Virus record (IMG/VR): IMGVR_UViG_3300037264_001350
Location: 1-22,660 of that record
From: a virus
Direction: 5' to 3' (one strand)
Length of the DNA: 22,660 nucleotides
The stretch's first letter is position 1; each line of letters starts with the position of its first letter. Positions 15,457 through 22,660 of this stretch are shown piece after piece. Both the position numbers and the translations under genes were made by a program. Under the pieces are notes generated by a model. It saw nothing but the letters and a program-made list of their open reading frames with translations, had not been told where the DNA came from and did no database searches.

Positions 15457-16155
15457 CTACACCGCAACCAAGCCCTGCATCCCTGGGGCCTCCAGAATCG
15501 GGCGCGTGCTTCTAGACGGTATCGGCAACTCGGCGGTCGCCGCCTTCCCACCGCACACGTTCGAGCAATATCGCTGGCCGTGGCGGACTGGCGTAAAGGG
15601 TTTCCGACACTCGTGCCATTCGCAGATCGACGGCCCAACGGACCCCTGCGTCTGCTGCGTCTCCCAACTGGGATCGATCAGCGGTGCCTGTAACCGACCA
15701 CTATCCGCCGCTCCCATCAGATGCCCGTAGATGAGCTGAGAGGGTTCAATGTGCAGGACCGATTCGCATATTTCATACGCGAAGTCGCGGGTCGCTTCCG
15801 GGAGCATATCGATGAGGGCACGAGCACAGTCTTCGATGGAATGTGGTGAGGCTGACAATACGCCCGTATAGGGTGAGACCTGCATCGTCATCCTCGGCGA
15901 GTCTGTGCGCTCCGCAACGAGCCGCGAGACTTCCTCGTCGATCAACCGTGCCACCGTGGGTTCGGTAAGCCTCGCCTTCAGGCGTATCTCCACTTCCTGC
16001 TCGATGATCTCTTCCGGCACATGCTGCGCAGCCTGCCCCGCCATGAGGCTATCGAGATACTTCGATAGAGATGGACTACCGGATGCCTTCGCTGCACATT
16101 TCAGTTTCTCGTACCGCTCCAGGCTCAGACTCAGGGACTTGTATTTCATTGCCAT
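15457..16155 (-). CDS. Protein with N-terminal RHH-like segment and C-terminal zinc finger
   Basis: 232 residues from ATG at 16155 with GGGAG ahead, six nt after the terminase stop (a GTG at 16170 is the alternative). The N-terminus (MKYKSLSLSLERYEKLKCAA and SLSKYLDSLM) resembles a ribbon-helix-helix DNA-binding unit; a charged helix follows (PEEIIEQEVEIRLKARLTEP). The C-terminus holds CEWHECRKPFTPVRHGQRYC and SNVC, a zinc finger of the C-F-QRYCS-C type. The same finger recurs in the membrane-anchored protein at 19383-20036, including the following GKAAT/GSKSAT and ELP. It may regulate or assist packaging; its exact role is unknown. Confidence 0.75.
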   Translation of the reverse strand: MAMKYKSLSLSLERYEKLKCAAKASGSPSLSKYLDSLMAGQAAQHVPEEIIEQEVEIRLKARLTEPTVARLIDEEVSRLVAERTDSPRMTMQVSPYTGVLSASPHSIEDCARALIDMLPEATRDFAYEICESVLHIEPSQLIYGHLMGAADSGRLQAPLIDPSWETQQTQGSVGPSICEWHECRKPFTPVRHGQRYCSNVCGGKAATAELPIPSRSTRPILEAPGMQGLVAV

Positions 16156-16160
16156 GTTGC

Positions 16161-17966
16161 CTACTCCCACGCCTCTTGCTCTGCAAGGGCTCGCTCGAAA
16201 CCGTCCTGATAACTATTCTTCCGCACCACCTGATCCCAATTTCGGTCGTAGAACGCCGGGTCTTTCGGGGCCTGCACGGTCTTTATCTCAACCGGAGGCC
16301 CATCCCATCCCTCGAAGGTTTCGTCGATAGAGGCGCGAAGACAAATAGCATACGACATTACCGCGTCGTCTAACTCCCCGGGGATCGCCTCATAGTGCCG
16401 GTCGCTGTACTTGCGGAAGGTCGTCAATTCCTTCCACAGGGTCTCAGACCGGATCGTGGTCTTGCCGGCAGTCAACCAGTCAATCATCGTGGACACCAGA
16501 AACACCTTTGAGTTCGGAGTGGTGTCCCATCCCGTGTCTTTCGTGAGAATCTTCGAGGCCACCTTGGAATAGTTCTTCCAGATGAACATGTTGGGGTACA
16601 CCTTCCCCAACTCCGAATTGGTATAGAACCCCGGATTGCCGGGATTCGATTCGATGGCGACTTGAGCCGTATTATACGCCAAGCCCAACCATTTCGCAAT
16701 GTTCACCAACGGAGACCCTGGATTGATCATATTGTCGCGCCATTCCGCTACTTGGCATTTGTCACGGCGCCGCAGCACCGTCCCCACGGTATACGTCTGG
16801 CCGACGCCAGCGCACACGTCATAGGCAATATCGTAGGCTTCGCCAGGTTTCGGCCACTCCCAAATCTTTAACGGTCCCTCGGCTTCGGTAGAGAACCAGC
16901 CGCCGTTCGCAGGGTCAAAAGCATGGACGGCCCCTTGGAAGATCGGCTCCCGCACCTGTGCCTTCAGGTCCTTCAATGTCTGACTGGTGAGCAGGTTTGT
17001 GCCGGGGATAATCCACGCTTCCTCGTAGGTCAATGGATACGACTGCTGAAACCGTTCTAAACCCCCGCTCTCGGAAAACTCCGCCAACTTGTAGCGCCGC
17101 CACTTAATGAACTCTGGCGTCACGCCCTTGATCTTCAGGAGTTCCCGTTCTTCCTTACTGAAGTCCAAGGTCTCACCGTCTCGAAGCGGTAACGCACAGT
17201 CTGGATCGTCTTGTGCCCCAACAAATGTAAACCGCCACGGGGTATACTGCCGCTCCTTCCTGACATCATCACACATCGTCTTAAACCACGAGGTCATTGG
17301 ATTATAGAACGCCGCTGATTCCATAATGAGAATCGAGCGATATTTCATCGGGACCGCATCGAAGATGGCGGATTGGAGTTCTTCGGGCTTTTCGTATCTC
17401 CCAACTTCAGAGAGATGAGCCGCGTGCAACGTCCTCCCGACTCCTGAGTGAATGTTTTTGGCTGTGGCAATAAAGATACGACTATTCAATCCAGGATTCA
17501 GGATGGCATCCTTACTGTCAGGATTATCGAAGACGAGCCCTTCGATGGTATCATGCTTCACCATTGGGCGGATCGACGCATCAAGGGAGCGATGGAAGGT
17601 CTGGTGCATGACAAAGATTTCTCTTGCGGTATCCTTGTCGTGCGCAATGATGAGCGCGTTCATGTTTTTGTTGAGAGCGCACTTCCAATGCACCAAGCCT
17701 GATGCTTCCGTCGTCCCGCCTATTTGGCGCCCCTTAAACCATATCTGGCGAGCAAACTGTTCGTCCTCAAGTTGCTGTTCTGTAGACTTCCACCACCGCA
17801 TCTGTCCTGGGCGGTTTCGGATGTCCAGCGCGATCTCCTCGCCGCCTTCTTTTGTCCGAATCTTCAACTGCTCACGAGCGAAGAGTGGATAATCCTGTCG
17901 GTAGAGATAGTGCCTGGCTTCGCGGAGGAGGCGGGCCTTGGGGATGGAGTCCAAGAGAGTAGTCAT
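16161..17966 (-). CDS. terL: Terminase large subunit
   Basis: 601 residues. The ATG at 17966 overlaps the upstream stop as ATGA; a longer frame to 18068 lies inside the previous gene and is rejected. ATPase: WFKGRQIGGTTEA at residues 76-88 is a variant Walker A (K-x-R-Q-x-G-x-T) with HAAHLSEVG at 181-189 as the Walker B region. Nuclease: the RNase H-like fold shows YDVCAGVG with D383, AIESN with E439 and ELDDAVMSYA with D533/D534. The set matches phage DNA-packaging motors, which translocate DNA into the procapsid and cut it. It sits upstream of the portal, scaffold and coat genes. Full length with all key residues, so probably active. Confidence 0.95.
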   Translation of the reverse strand: MTTLLDSIPKARLLREARHYLYRQDYPLFAREQLKIRTKEGGEEIALDIRNRPGQMRWWKSTEQQLEDEQFARQIWFKGRQIGGTTEASGLVHWKCALNKNMNALIIAHDKDTAREIFVMHQTFHRSLDASIRPMVKHDTIEGLVFDNPDSKDAILNPGLNSRIFIATAKNIHSGVGRTLHAAHLSEVGRYEKPEELQSAIFDAVPMKYRSILIMESAAFYNPMTSWFKTMCDDVRKERQYTPWRFTFVGAQDDPDCALPLRDGETLDFSKEERELLKIKGVTPEFIKWRRYKLAEFSESGGLERFQQSYPLTYEEAWIIPGTNLLTSQTLKDLKAQVREPIFQGAVHAFDPANGGWFSTEAEGPLKIWEWPKPGEAYDIAYDVCAGVGQTYTVGTVLRRRDKCQVAEWRDNMINPGSPLVNIAKWLGLAYNTAQVAIESNPGNPGFYTNSELGKVYPNMFIWKNYSKVASKILTKDTGWDTTPNSKVFLVSTMIDWLTAGKTTIRSETLWKELTTFRKYSDRHYEAIPGELDDAVMSYAICLRASIDETFEGWDGPPVEIKTVQAPKDPAFYDRNWDQVVRKNSYQDGFERALAEQEAWE

Positions 17967-18229
17967 GGCTTTACAGCGGTATCCGACTTGTTGCCTTGAT
18001 ACACGCCAATGAACGAAAAGAATGGTGGAGCATATCGAACAAATCCAGCCATCCTCAACGTACTGCAAAGAGGCTCTTTGTCTTGAAAAGATACCGCGGG
18101 TGAGGCCATAGGCCTGCTTTGCGCCTCAGCCGTCGCTGGAGTCAGTGGGGCCACGCTGCCGGACGTATCCATAACAGGGGCCGCATCTGTCCAGGAGGGC
18201 GAGACGAAGAACCCGCGATGAGTCGTCAT
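17963..18229 (-). CDS. Small hypothetical protein coupled to terminase
   Basis: 88 residues. The ATG at 18229 follows the preceding stop by six bases with no clear SD, implying re-initiation; its stop overlaps the terminase ATG. It is Pro/Ala/Ser rich (APVMDTSGSVAPLTPATAEA) with an aromatic segment near the end (FVRYAPPFFSFIGVYQG). No family recognised. The overlaps on both sides support it as a real translated unit. Confidence 0.6.
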   Translation of the reverse strand: MTTHRGFFVSPSWTDAAPVMDTSGSVAPLTPATAEAQSRPMASPAVSFQDKEPLCSTLRMAGFVRYAPPFFSFIGVYQGNKSDTAVKP

Positions 18230-19382: not shown

Positions 19383-20036
19383 CTAGTAGTACCCAAGGGT
19401 CCAAACAACGGCAAGAGGGAGACCCATGAGCGCTGCCTCTCGTTCGATGTGTTGTGCGTACACCTCCGCCTGAGCTTTTACCCCTTCTTCGTGCATGTTC
19501 CTCCTTGTGCCAGCCTCCACATTCGTGAGCTGTTCCAATTTGCCACGATGGGGGTCTTCCTTTCCTCTGCCCATCCCTATCCATCTTCCAGGCCTCCGAA
19601 GAACTCCTTGGGCGCTGAGTCTACGACGTGCCCTTGCCCCACCCGACCACAGACTCCACTCTTGCTTCCAAGGGTGGATCGCCAGCCATTGCAGTTGGTA
19701 GGCACGTTCCTTCTCTCGGTACGACCACGCAGGAGAATACGATTGTAACTGCCTGCCGTTGAGCGTCGTCGGGAGTTCGCAAGTGGCCGACTTCGAGCCG
19801 CAGGCATTCCCACAAAACCGCTGTCCAGGTTGAGCGGGAAGAAAAGACTGCTCACACCATTCACATCTGCTTGTTTCGAGAGCCACAGGGGCGGGTGTTG
19901 TCTGTATCGATGGGTTGAGAATTGAGTCTAGTTCTTTCAGCTCCCTCATATCACGAAAGGACAGAGCAACCATGAGAGTGAGGCTCACGATGCCTACGGC
20001 CGGCAGCACGATGAAGAAGACAAAGAACTCTTCCAT
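19383..20036 (-). CDS. Membrane-anchored zinc-finger protein; C-terminal half uncertain
   Basis: 217 residues from ATG at 20036 (shares a base with the upstream TGA; GTG at 20039 is the alternative). Residues about 4-28 form a strongly hydrophobic membrane helix (FFVFFIVLPAVGIVSLTLMV). Then a linker and a zinc finger CEWCEQSFLPAQPGQRFCGN followed by AC and GSKSATCELP, closely matching the C-terminus of the protein at 15457-16155. Beyond the finger the frame is Trp/Arg rich and of doubtful coding quality; an ATG at 19574 in the same frame, two bases after a stop in another frame, could begin an independent 63-residue gene (MGRGKEDPHRGKLEQLTNVE). A helix (KAQAEVYAQHIEREAAL) sits near its end. 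It stops at TAG 19385-19383. Confidence 0.55.
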   Translation of the reverse strand: MEEFFVFFIVLPAVGIVSLTLMVALSFRDMRELKELDSILNPSIQTTPAPVALETSRCEWCEQSFLPAQPGQRFCGNACGSKSATCELPTTLNGRQLQSYSPAWSYREKERAYQLQWLAIHPWKQEWSLWSGGARARRRLSAQGVLRRPGRWIGMGRGKEDPHRGKLEQLTNVEAGTRRNMHEEGVKAQAEVYAQHIEREAALMGLPLAVVWTLGYY

Positions 20037-20374
20037 CACTCCTCTAAGGCTCCCCGAACTCCTGTTCTCGTCGCAATAGCCAGTAACATCGCCTGCGGAA
20101 GCTGCGAGAGTACGTCATCCATACCACCAAGATCCTCGGCCCGCTGTGGTGTGACCTTCACTTCCTCTGCCGCATAGTCGCCGGCTATTCTAGCTCGAAG
20201 CTTAATCCCCTCAACGTTCGCCCGCCAGTCGTCATGGTTGAGCAAGTACTCAATTTTCTTTGCAATGGCCTCGGCTTTGAGCGTCCCTATGCGCTTAAAC
20301 ACATCGCGTACCTGCTCGTCGGCCACGGCTTGCAACTTCTCTAACACTTCCGGGGGAGGTGGGCCTATGGGCAT
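20036..20374 (-). CDS. Helical protein, possible small terminase
   Basis: 112 residues, ATG at 20374 with AAGGAGATG ahead. Predicted almost fully helical: EVLEKLQAVADEQVRDVFKR, GTLKAEAIAKKIEYLLNHDD, VEGIKLRARIAGDYAAEEV, then MDDVLSQLPQAMLLAIATRT. The size and helix content fit small terminase subunits or similar packaging factors upstream of the large subunit, but no HTH signature is certain. It overlaps the preceding gene by 10 nt and the following by one base. Confidence 0.65.
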   Translation of the reverse strand: MPIGPPPPEVLEKLQAVADEQVRDVFKRIGTLKAEAIAKKIEYLLNHDDWRANVEGIKLRARIAGDYAAEEVKVTPQRAEDLGGMDDVLSQLPQAMLLAIATRTGVRGALEE

Positions 20375-20591: not shown

Positions 20592-20918
20592 CTACCAACA
20601 CACCGCCCCCCCGCCCACCTGGACACACCCGCCGTCTCGACTCCTTGTGGGAAGCGGTCGATACCACTCCGGGGGGACGCTCGGGACGATCACCGCCTCC
20701 GGGACATCTGCTCGTCCTCCGCTCGGAACTGGATACCCCTGGAGACCACGTTCCGCCCCAGGCCCATCCACGCTCCGCATCCGCGAGGAGTAATCCCAGA
20801 TCATCGTACCATCGTCACACGACGCGAGCGCACTGCCGTAGCGGGTACAGGTGAGGGCGTCAGCGGAGACGGCGAGACCAAGGAGTCCTGCCACAATTAC
20901 GCATCCGATGAGTTTCAT
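20592..20918 (-). CDS. Secreted/periplasmic Cys-containing protein
   Basis: 108 residues, ATG at 20918 with AAGGGAGGGG ahead and overlapping the upstream stop as ATGA. A textbook signal peptide is present: MKLIGCVIVAGLLGLAVSAD then cleavage likely after ADA. The mature part begins LTCTRYGSALASCDDGTMIW with two cysteines; a later pair (GGC and VCW at the end) could form disulphides. The C-terminal half is Pro/Gly/Arg rich. A secreted host-surface protein in a phage operon could give superinfection exclusion or aid lysis; this is inference. It is not a typical lipoprotein (no lipobox at the cleavage site). Confidence 0.75.
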   Translation of the reverse strand: MKLIGCVIVAGLLGLAVSADALTCTRYGSALASCDDGTMIWDYSSRMRSVDGPGAERGLQGYPVPSGGRADVPEAVIVPSVPPEWYRPLPTRSRDGGCVQVGGGAVCW

Positions 20919-21109
20919 GCTGTCCCCTCCCTTCTCCTCAACGCACGACGGCTGATCCCGCAGTCATCGCAGAGCCAGGGCGCGTCAGGGTCGGCGTGCT
21001 GCGTGGCAATGATGTCTCCGCACCATCCACAGGTCAAGAGCCCATCACGGCGAAGATTCGGCACAGGCCGTCCATCGAGAAGTTTGATATGGTCGTCGTA
21101 AAGTGCCAT
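20915..21109 (-). CDS. Small zinc-ribbon protein
   Basis: 64 residues, first gene of the late run, ATG at 21109 with only a weak AGG for SD. Two C-x2-C knuckles (CGWCGD at 27-32 and CDDCGI at 47-52) with intervening H and W make a zinc ribbon; flanks are basic at the C-terminus (SRRALRRREG). Such proteins often regulate transcription or act as adaptor to host factors. Its position directly after the promoter region suggests a regulatory role in late expression; not proven. Stop overlaps the next ATG as ATGA. Confidence 0.75.
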   Translation of the reverse strand: MALYDDHIKLLDGRPVPNLRRDGLLTCGWCGDIIATQHADPDAPWLCDDCGISRRALRRREGTA

Positions 21110-21187
21110 TGTGTGCCTGTTGACCTAAATGACTCGTGTGAGGTATTGTTTTATTTCTTATATAGCACACGATAATTTGGGCATCAG

Positions 21188-21215
21188 ATTATCTTATATT
21201 CAAGAATCGTGCCAA
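21188..21215 (-). promoter_or_regulatory. Putative promoter for the leftward late run
   Basis: TTGGCA at 21215-21210, 16-nt spacer, GATAAT at 21193-21188 (five of six -10 bases). It lies 80 bases ahead of the zinc-ribbon gene in AT-rich DNA. The -35 is inside a 15-bp sequence repeated at 21375-21389. Confidence 0.5.
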
Positions 21216-21389
21216 CTTCTCTTTCCGCTCTCACAACCTCAACGCTATCACCTGTGAGGTGCGATTACTTTCCTATTACCACACCTTGAATATCCGTGTC
21301 AAGGAAAAAAGAGGCTTACGCGGGGAAGATTTTTTCTTGTTCTTGTGTACCCTTTTAGATACAGTAAGTCCTAACAAGAATCGTGCCAA
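21201..21389. repeat. 15-bp direct repeat in the control region
   Basis: CAAGAATCGTGCCAA occurs at 21201-21215 and 21375-21389, 174 bp apart, in the AT-richer control region. The first copy overlaps the -35 of a candidate promoter. Each may be a binding site or a promoter core. Confidence 0.7.
21273..21302 (-). promoter_or_regulatory. Second putative leftward promoter
   Basis: TTGACA at 21302-21297, 18-nt spacer, TAATAG at 21278-21273 with TG-G before it. It matches the design of the promoter at 13154-13182 (TTGACACG ... TGGTARTA). An inverted repeat CACCTGTGAGGTG (21250-21262) lies right after the predicted start. Confidence 0.45.
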
Positions 21390-21602
21390 GAAAGAGACAG
21401 TGTGATATTTTTTCAATGAGACGGTGAAATTAAGGAATGTTGTGGGAATTTTGAGGGGGTAGGGGAAACCCAGTGAAGGAGAAAACATAGTCTCTACGTC
21501 ACCTGCGAGCGCCACATTGAGCATTATGCTCGGTCCATAATGGCGGAACAAAATCATCTCACTAGCCACCTCACCTAGTCGCTCCCGCTGTTGACCTATC
21601 AT
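21276..21602 (-). CDS. Doubtful 108-residue frame in the control region
   Basis: An open frame with ATG at 21602 and AAAGGA eight bases ahead. The first 45 residues look protein-like (GQQRERLGEVASEMILFRHY, MLNVALAGDVETMF), the rest is low-quality (Lys/Ser/Phe runs) in AT-richer DNA. An operator-like repeat (21609-21624) and possible -10 (TATAAG) lie directly upstream, as for a regulated gene. It may be a small early gene, or a frame with a mutated 3' half. No family recognised. Confidence 0.35.
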   Translation of the reverse strand: MIGQQRERLGEVASEMILFRHYGPSIMLNVALAGDVETMFSPSLGFPYPLKIPTTFLNFTVSLKKYHTVSFLARFLLGLTVSKRVHKNKKKSSPRKPLFSLTRIFKVW

Positions 21603-21608
21603 CCCACT

Positions 21609-21624
21609 GTATCCTTTATGATAC
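21609..21624. promoter_or_regulatory. Operator-like inverted repeat, second copy
   Basis: GTATCCTTTATGATAC: 5-bp inverted arms, 16 bp in all, matching the site at 13129-13144 in 13 of 16 positions, including ACT before it. It lies seven bases before the doubtful gene's ATG. Confidence 0.5.
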
Positions 21625-21765
21625 GTCTTATAAGGAACAATATGTAACCTTGACTGATCGGTACAAAACCAATGTTATTGAGTAGTTATAAGATTGAATG
21701 GGATCGAGAGAGGTTATGAGAGAAGACACACACCAGATCTGGTAGGCCCAGAGGCTATCTGTAGG
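21625..21765. other. Non-coding stretch downstream of the HTH gene
   Basis: AT-richer DNA with a possible -10 for the 21602 frame (TATAAG on the minus strand near 21630), a CCAGATCTGG palindrome at 21733-21742, and no convincing gene. No clear terminator for the HTH gene is seen. Confidence 0.5.
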
Positions 21766-22311
21766 CTATTGGTGCAGGTACGCGAGTAGTTGGCGCAGGC
21801 TGGAGGTAATGAGGGCGGCGCGAGATTGCCCATGGCCGGGGTGAGTGTACACGCGGGGGATACCGAGCTTGCAGAGTATGGGATAAAGCCTATCCCGTGA
21901 GATTTGGAGGAGGGCGCACACATACGCGATCGGGTAAACCTCCTCTCCCTCCGCTACCTCCACGGCGCCCCCCCACTGTGTAAGTCTTACATACCTACTG
22001 GGACATCTTTGTCCCACCTGGGACATCTTTGTCCCACTCATCGCTTGTATCGCCGATCCCACTCGTGCCCACTCCCACGCCTCACCCCTCCTAGCGCCCC
22101 CATGCCCATACCGACCCTTATACCGACCCTTATACCGCCCCTTATATCGCCCCTTATCGGGATGCCCTACAGGGTAGAGCCGTGGCCGTCCACCACGGTG
22201 TCGCCTGCCATCGCCAGGACAGGCAGCCAGGTGGGCATCATAGCCTGCCTGATACTGCGGCTGTAGGCAGCGCGGGCAACGCGGGTACTGCGCGGGATCA
22301 TCTCTCACCAT
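21766..22311 (-). CDS. Zinc-finger/HTH DNA-binding protein, probable phage regulator
   Basis: 181 residues, ATG at 22311 with no SD but a promoter -10 placed so that transcription should begin at the ATG (leaderless). Residues 12-31 form a CCHC zinc finger (C12-x2-C15-x11-H27-x3-C31). Then an AT-hook-like GGRPRLYP (40-47), four tandem KGRY repeats (53-68), a duplicated linker (about 92-105) and a C-terminal winged-helix/MerR-like helix-turn-helix (VYPIAYVCALLQISRDRLYP, then ILCKLGIPRVY). This is a sequence-specific DNA-binding protein by architecture. It is divergent from a strong rightward promoter, which suggests a repressor of the switch region. Exact family unknown. Confidence 0.75.
   Translation of the reverse strand: MVRDDPAQYPRCPRCLQPQYQAGYDAHLAACPGDGRRHRGGRPRLYPVGHPDKGRYKGRYKGRYKGRYGHGGARRGEAWEWARVGSAIQAMSGTKMSQVGQRCPSRYVRLTQWGGAVEVAEGEEVYPIAYVCALLQISRDRLYPILCKLGIPRVYTHPGHGQSRAALITSSLRQLLAYLHQ
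21979..21991. repeat. Short palindrome inside the HTH gene
   Basis: TGTAAGTCTTACA is a perfect 6-bp inverted repeat with one central base, directly next to the tandem palindromes at 21998-22037. Together they form a cluster of dyads within coding sequence. Confidence 0.7.
21998..22037. repeat. Tandem 20-bp duplication, each copy palindromic
   Basis: Two perfect adjacent copies of a 20-bp unit that contains TGGGACATCTTTGTCCCA (7-bp arms, 4-nt centre). Because 20 is not a multiple of three the two copies are read in different frames in the HTH gene (SGTKMSQ and VGQRCPS). Possible autoregulatory operator pair or recent slippage. Confidence 0.9.
22108..22155. repeat. Four tandem 12-bp repeats encoding KGRY
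   Basis: Units of ATACCGACCCTT (two identical, two with one or two changes) run head to tail. On the minus strand they encode four KGRY units in the HTH protein. Twelve bp is in frame, so copy number can vary without frameshift. Confidence 0.92.
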
Positions 22312-22317
22312 GTGGGC

Positions 22318-22326
22318 ATTCTACCA
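22318..22326 (-). promoter_or_regulatory. Extended -10 giving a leaderless transcript
   Basis: TGGTAGAAT on the minus strand (TAGAAT at 22323-22318, TG at 22326-22325). Six bases separate it from the ATG at 22311, so the usual start point (about seven bases after -10) falls on the A of ATG. No good -35 at 17 nt. Confidence 0.5.
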
Positions 22327-22391
22327 TAGCGAGAAATTGGCGTACATCTATTATTCTCTATCCCCGCAAACCCACGCCCATGGCCGATCTA

Positions 22392-22420
22392 TACGATTTG
22401 TCCCAAAACATGTACGATTT
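22392..22420. promoter_or_regulatory. Paired TACGATTT direct repeats upstream of the rightward promoter
   Basis: TACGATTT at 22392-22399 and 22413-22420, 21 bp start to start (two helical turns), ending three bases before the -35. The same-face spacing suits a dimeric regulator. Confidence 0.6.
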
Positions 22421-22423
22421 CCC

Positions 22424-22452
22424 TTGACAGCTACAATCCATAGCTCTATATT
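22424..22452 (+). promoter_or_regulatory. Strong rightward promoter
   Basis: TTGACA at 22424-22429, a 17-nt spacer and TATATT at 22447-22452: near-consensus sigma-70 type. An inverted repeat ATAGC/GCTAT (22440-22458) straddles the -10 and could be an operator. It drives the gene beginning at 22508. Confidence 0.82.
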
Positions 22453-22507
22453 GGCTATAGATCGAGGGTAGCTGAGGCGGGACAACACCTAACGCGGGAG
22501 AGAGACG

Positions 22508-22660
22508 ATGCGCACCATGACTGAGGCGGATGCAATCAGCTACATTATAGCCACCTGTCCGTCTCTCACCTATGGGCAGTGTTACGCGGTACGGGGGGAT
22601 CAACTTATCCCCAAGAGGCGCTTCCGACGATCCTACAATCGCCCGGACGGGGTGCAGTCG
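22508..22660 (+). CDS. Rightward gene, partial (unknown)
   Basis: ATG at 22508 with GGGAGAGAG ahead; open to the right edge (51 residues seen). It begins MRTMTEADAISYIIATCPSL, followed by TYGQCYAVRGDQLIPKRRF and a basic stretch. An ATG three codons later is a second candidate start. It is the first gene of the rightward arm, likely early or switch-controlled. The fragment is too short for a family. Confidence 0.7.
   Translation, partial: MRTMTEADAISYIIATCPSLTYGQCYAVRGDQLIPKRRFRRSYNRPDGVQS

Follow-up and report, generated by a model that had tools for sequence, protein, structure and literature searches.

Tandem palindromes of a class found in phage initiator genes, beside a divergent promoter region in a tailed-phage genome fragment

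Introduction

In the O protein of phage lambda, a winged HTH (wHTH) comes before the stretch encoded by the iteron array, and the P-binding C-terminus comes after it. The array, to which O binds, is made up of four 19-bp iterons midway along gene O (PMC3985674). A different arrangement is that of the leaderless divergent regulators, exemplified by lambda cI with its promoter PRM and by PaaR2 (PMC8630535).

The DNA analysed here, hereafter the window, is the complete 22,660-nt virus record IMGVR_UViG_3300037264_001350 (positions 1-22,660), a fragment of the IMG/VR type. From the letters alone, an earlier note had read positions 22312-22507 as a divergent genetic switch, with a leftward gene leaderless in the manner of lambda cI from PRM. 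We compare this region and the gene at its left with both arrangements, and with a class of paired palindrome, GGGACA-N4-TGTCCC, that marks initiator genes in other phages.

Results

Genomic context

Positions 22312-22507 form a 196-bp gap between a leftward ORF, P0001 (22311-21766), and a rightward gene that starts at 22508 (Table 1). The rightward gene is preceded by a GGGAG Shine-Dalgarno sequence (22496-22500), 7 nt before its ATG, and our searches returned no credible relative for it; a palindrome, GGGGAT-N6-ATCCCC, lies within this ORF at 22595-22612. Through the portal, terminase large subunit (TerL) and major head protein (MCP) genes we found one close relative, contig L002 (8.2 kb), with ca. 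77-81% nucleotide identity over the long matches; it ends near the terminase gene and stops short of both the gap and the palindrome array described below. The DNA of 20900-22660 had no match among phages, and Rfam and tRNA scans of the window were empty.

Table 1. Position of the features discussed in the text.
Feature	Positions	Strand	Details
Major head protein (MCP)	11228-10263	-	phrog_9953, E 1.4e-27
P22-like portal	14957-13191	-	PF16510, E 1.3e-21
Terminase large subunit (TerL)	18068-16161	-	phrog_2, E 1.6e-16
Leftward ORF P0001, 181 aa	21766-22311	-	CCHC finger, GRP segment, KGRY repeats, iteron array, C-terminal wHTH
Predicted wHTH, MerR/excisionase/AlpA type	21772-21942	-	codons 124-180; AlphaFold2 and Foldseek
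Two perfect tandem 20-bp units with TGGGACA-N4-TGTCCCA	21998-22037	.	iteron-like array
12-bp direct repeat, four in-frame copies (KGRY x4)	22108-22155	.	repeat scan
RGGRPR, AT-hook-like (GRP segment)	22180-22197	-	codons 39-44; translation
C-x2-C-x11-H-x3-C finger-like pattern	22219-22278	-	codons 12-31; C12, C15, H27, C31; translation
Extended -10 of leftward ORF, TGgTAGAAT	22318-22326	-	rank 41 of 45,248; 6 nt before ATG
TACGATTT, copy 1	22392-22399	+	overlaps half-site TTTGTCCCA (22397-22405)
Half-site TTTGTCCCA	22397-22405	+	half of the array palindrome; 9-mer found nowhere else in the record except within the array
TACGATTT, copy 2	22413-22420	+	exact 8-mer repeat
Rightward promoter TTGACA-17-TATATT	22424-22452	+	TTGACA 22424-22429, 17-nt spacer, TATATT 22447-22452; exact match; pattern count and weight-matrix scan
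Nested imperfect dyad over the -10	22428-22474	.	outer CAGCTAC/GTAGCTG, inner ATCCATAGC/GCTATAGAT; marginal
Half-site GGGACAA	22479-22485	+	just downstream of predicted rightward start
Rightward gene start	22508-22660	+	cut by contig end, 150 bp in

Elsewhere in the window, the listed TTG start of TerL (16161-18068) is probably too early, as the TerL of L002 begins at MTTLL/MTLLA, ca. 34 codons in. Two leftward genes (15457-16170 and 19383-20039), apparent paralogues and weakly NinG/HNH-like, have in common a treble-clef-like motif with a cysteine pair and GQR(Y/F)C.N.CG.K.AT.ELP. Likewise, the adjacent and overlapping ORFs 1130-1723 and 1654-2154 are alike and have the look of acetyltransferases (GNAT), within the phage structural region.

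Divergent promoters, repeats and half-sites in the gap

The near-consensus rightward promoter and the extended -10 of the leftward gene, both singled out in the earlier note, are indeed present. The pattern TTGACA-N16-18-TATAWT occurs once in the window and in 0 of 100 shuffles, and the rightward site ranked first as a sigma-70-like promoter when the 45,248 positions on both strands of the record were scored with a rough weight matrix. The leftward site has a poor -35 (TGTACG, 3/6) and its predicted transcript start falls at or next to the ATG (22311). Because the extended -10 sits so close to the ATG, and no Shine-Dalgarno sequence occurs in the 25 nt upstream, a leaderless start of the leftward ORF is plausible.

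The proposed operators fared less well. The two copies of TACGATTT lie on the same helical face, as described, and the 8-mer is absent elsewhere in the record; when the 196-bp gap was shuffled, 19% of the sequences contained an exact 8-mer direct repeat, and 2.5% one with both copies on one face. The inverted repeat centred on the -10 is also real (inner arms matching at 8/9 positions, outer arms at 7/7), with a level reached by 2.1% of shuffles at the -10 position and by 33% anywhere in the gap, and its single-strand fold is ordinary (z -1.1). Both elements are thus near chance level (p ca. 0.02 each at best) and suggestive at most as signals. This agrees with a reading in which the phage is virulent, the promoter is a strong but unremarkable early one beside a small leftward gene, and the repeats have no role; indeed, phage early regions are commonly headed by strong sigma-70 promoters. 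Against this, the paired palindrome in the leftward gene would have to be a coincidence with a class strongly tied to initiator genes, and we regard such an explanation as very unlikely.

Two half-sites of that palindrome, TTTGTCCCA and GGGACAA, bracket the rightward promoter. Counted as hexamers, there are 2 half-sites in the 196-bp gap versus 22 in the 21,765 bp elsewhere, roughly a 2% event. Array-bearing relatives show no excess upstream of their genes (0.14 vs 0.39 half-sites per kb), and on these figures we rejected promoter half-sites as a general trait of array genes. It is possible that the protein recognizing the array also regulates the rightward promoter via its half-sites, a proposal to which the comparison with relatives lends no support.

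P0001 combines a finger-like pattern with a C-terminal winged HTH

Of the six frames, that of P0001 scores highest on codons, yet the score is weak (-0.11 vs +0.25 for TerL). Its translation contains the elements that had been read in it, namely a CCHC pattern, a GRP segment, four KGRY units and an HTH, and the structure prediction suggested at the time places a wHTH at the C-terminus. AlphaFold2, run without an alignment, modelled residues 1-116 mostly with low confidence, as was also a helix at residues 18-30 in the finger-like stretch. Folded alone, the wHTH reached a pLDDT of ca. 83-92 over its helices (mean 71), and the nearest folds in Foldseek were those of BldC, RacA and TorI. Comparison with viral AlpA/PrtN/excisionase-like proteins gave Foldseek probabilities up to 0.98, with E values no better than 0.014. 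The modelled C-terminus is therefore likely of the MerR/AlpA/excisionase wHTH fold type, an assignment of fold that, with no match at E < 0.001, does not establish family membership.

At the sequence level, the architecture is as unfamiliar as the earlier note had found it: P0001 had no match in Pfam, PHROGs or NCBIfam, and no relatives in phage genomes, viral contigs or bacterial genomes. By sequence it does not belong to Phage_rep_O, HTH_36 or the PHROGs initiator families and, having no HTH_3/S24 match, it does not qualify as a repressor of the CI or Cro families. Profile comparison with the array-bearing proteins of other phages matched only the array-encoded peptide itself. A PDB sequence match (8hdr, E 0.017) was rejected as chance.

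A tandem palindrome lies within the P0001 gene

Overlooked in the earlier note, and outside the gap that it had flagged, two perfect tandem palindromes of the initiator class lie inside the leftward ORF, at 21998-22037. They encode residues ca. 92-105 of P0001, ahead of the wHTH. Across the record, 18-mers recur within 200 bp in two places only, this array and the 12-bp KGRY repeat, both in the P0001 ORF. As 20 bp is not a whole number of codons, the second copy is translated in another frame than the first (GTKMSQ, then VGQRCPS), an argument for a signal at the DNA level. A BLAST search with the 56-nt array retrieved nothing from phages and plasmids, as expected for so short a query; the sole match to the exact 18-mer TGGGACATCTTTGTCCCA, a T4-like coding sequence reading LGTKMSQ, was judged to be chance.

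The P0001 gene adjoins an A+T-rich stretch (21110-21765) that holds the four A+T-richest 60-mers of the record (67-75% A+T) and, in the weight-matrix scan, promoter-like sites on the minus strand; it is a possible unwinding and late-promoter region. This A+T-rich gap also contains an exact 15-bp direct repeat, CAAGAATCGTGCCAA, at 21201-21215 and 21375-21389, and a second repeat, CTGTTGACCTA, at 21117 and 21588, which may be late-promoter or origin elements.

The GGGACA-N4-TGTCCC class marks initiator genes of other phages

A scan of IMG/VR, with the window's own motif as the query, retrieved 34 stretches with two palindrome copies 4-24 apart and 5 with one palindrome and a further half-site, where our own estimate of the chance expectation is <0.1 (22 fixed bases, 21 gap lengths, tens of billions of bases). 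A random motif would have returned essentially nothing, and the link with initiator genes does not depend on the window; it is thus unlikely that the window's array arose by chance. The arrays contain two to four copies, on either strand, and are almost always in genes, directly after an N-terminal wHTH. Copies occur in all three reading frames (30, 21 and 16) and are mostly spaced 22-24 bp (22 bp in 16 cases, 23 bp in 18 and 24 bp in 8), which together indicate selection at the DNA level.

Nearly all the genes concerned are those of replication initiators, from different wHTH families. Among 32 array-bearing ORFs, 21 matched phrog_678 and 16 phrog_391 (both 'replication initiation O-like'), 20 matched phrog_270 and 17 phrog_428 (both 'replication initiation protein'), and 17 matched Pfam HTH_36, while the 25 families listed for 34 control ORFs from the same loci included none for replication initiation. 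For instance, L092 encodes a lambda-O homologue (PF04492, Phage_rep_O, E 3e-26) whose domain match spans residues 5-96, ahead of the array at residue ca. 115, and the gene after the initiator in L070 looks like one for a DnaC-type ATPase. Since nearly all the arrays are in initiator genes, and that of L092 is placed as in lambda, we take them as putative iterons of phage initiators and infer, from sequence, that the initiators bind them. Five annotated phages with initiators related to that of L086 all lack the GGGACA-N4-TGTCCC array, and some have other linker repeats. In the open-access literature searched, we found no paper placing this motif in the context of a phage origin. At L087:2582-3304, a pair of the palindrome, with spacing 33 and in frame, occurs within the linker of an S24-peptidase repressor resembling CI and is probably a coding duplication.

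The array could also be the binding site of this phage's initiator without P0001 being that initiator: the ORF would encode some other DNA-binding protein, or nothing, and the initiator gene would lie in sequence that the fragment lacks. In favour of this, the contig is incomplete, P0001 has a weak codon signal and no match among initiator families, and in L067, L068 and L079 the arrays are outside any obvious initiator ORF. Conversely, nearly all arrays sit in the initiator's own gene, and P0001 has a confident wHTH, a finger pattern and the best-scoring open frame across the array; we consider this alternative unlikely.

Discussion

Our results suggest, with a chance only slightly better than even, that the leftward gene, within a phage early-control region, contains an iteron array of origin type, and that the region works like such an origin. 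The gap would then control divergent transcription where the early and late regions of this tailed phage, with its P22-type portal, meet. Its strong rightward promoter, of the host sigma-70 type, would drive early genes lost past the contig end, and the weaker, extended -10 promoter would give rise, leftward, to a DNA-binding protein's mRNA with little or no leader. P0001, or a phage initiator like it, would most likely bind the palindromes in its own gene and build a nucleoprotein complex that helps to open the adjoining A+T-rich DNA, in the way that lambda O acts at ori-lambda in gene O; replication would start here, and the same protein could adjust the rightward promoter via the half-sites beside it.

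In support of an origin are the two perfect copies in a wHTH ORF and the location of the A+T-richest DNA (21110-21700) next to the gene. Counting against it, P0001 belongs to no initiator family, its wHTH follows the array and is MerR/AlpA-like rather than HTH_36-like, there are only two copies, spaced 20 bp as compared with 21-24 bp in most others, and the codon signal of the ORF is weak. Likewise, no DnaA-box cluster is visible in the record, and no helicase-loader gene in the fragment, which ends 150 bp into the rightward gene. Given the copy number and spacing, the position of the wHTH, the codon signal and the missing homology to initiators, we refrain from classing P0001 among the O-like initiators. 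That it is instead the first of a new type, with a zinc-finger/AT-hook front, an AlpA-like wHTH at the back and, taken over into its own gene, the widespread GGGACA-N4-TGTCCC iterons, and that it controls the divergent early promoter through the half-sites and so couples origin firing to early transcription, is an improbable proposal.

A transcriptional switch would have P0001 binding the palindromes in its own gene, together with the half-sites or dyad at the rightward promoter, and thereby choosing between leftward and rightward expression. Several features fit this: the divergent layout with a strong promoter facing the gene of a DNA-binding protein, the start of leaderless type, as in lambda cI and PaaR2 (PMC8630535), the TTTGTCCCA and GGGACAA sites at the flanks of the promoter, and a wHTH resembling those of AlpA/PrtN/excisionase regulators. 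Of the earlier reading, the divergent layout and the possibly leaderless gene are borne out by the sequence. Nothing shows a switch, and the analogy with lambda cI holds in geometry only: the level of the direct repeats and of the -10 dyad is close to chance, the region is absent from the one relative, and we identified neither an integrase among the genes looked at nor a second repressor in the fragment. Moreover, the palindrome class goes with replication initiators and not with repressors, L087 being the one S24-repressor outlier. We therefore hold a switch to be distinctly unlikely. The sole unmistakable signal in the leftward gene is of the iteron type found in phage initiator genes and points to replication control, and not to a lysis/lysogeny decision; a replication origin with its control region is more likely here than a lambda-like on/off switch.

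The arrays in L066-L103, many unrelated phage contigs, offer a handle for finding phage origins. If the palindrome is a binding site, sequence would suffice to locate the origins in many uncultured phages, and it would become testable why unlike initiators share one iteron. The window would add to these an initiator, or an origin-borne regulator, of unrecognised build.

Among described systems, ori-lambda and O are alike in having palindromic iterons ca. two helical turns apart within the gene of a wHTH DNA-binding protein, and the lambda-O homologue of L092 carries the very GGGACA-N4-TGTCCC class after its Phage_rep_O domain. Lambda O itself differs in having four 19-bp iterons of another sequence, whereas the window has two copies in a gene with the finger first, the wHTH last and no homology to O. 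The HTH_36-type initiators (L066-L102) have the same palindrome, in tandem, inside a wHTH gene and repeated at the DNA level in different frames; unlike P0001, their copies are mostly spaced 22-24 bp, the wHTH is N-terminal and they match PHROGs initiators. Lambda cI/PRM and PaaR2 also have divergent promoters and a regulator -10 that places the transcript start at the ATG, but P0001 lacks a CI-type HTH and the repeats proposed as operators in the gap are near chance level. Finally, BldC, RacA, TorI and PrtN resemble the predicted fold of the 60 C-terminal residues of P0001, which, unlike the MerR/AlpA/excisionase proteins, matches no sequence family and has its wHTH fused behind a finger and a repeat-coded linker.
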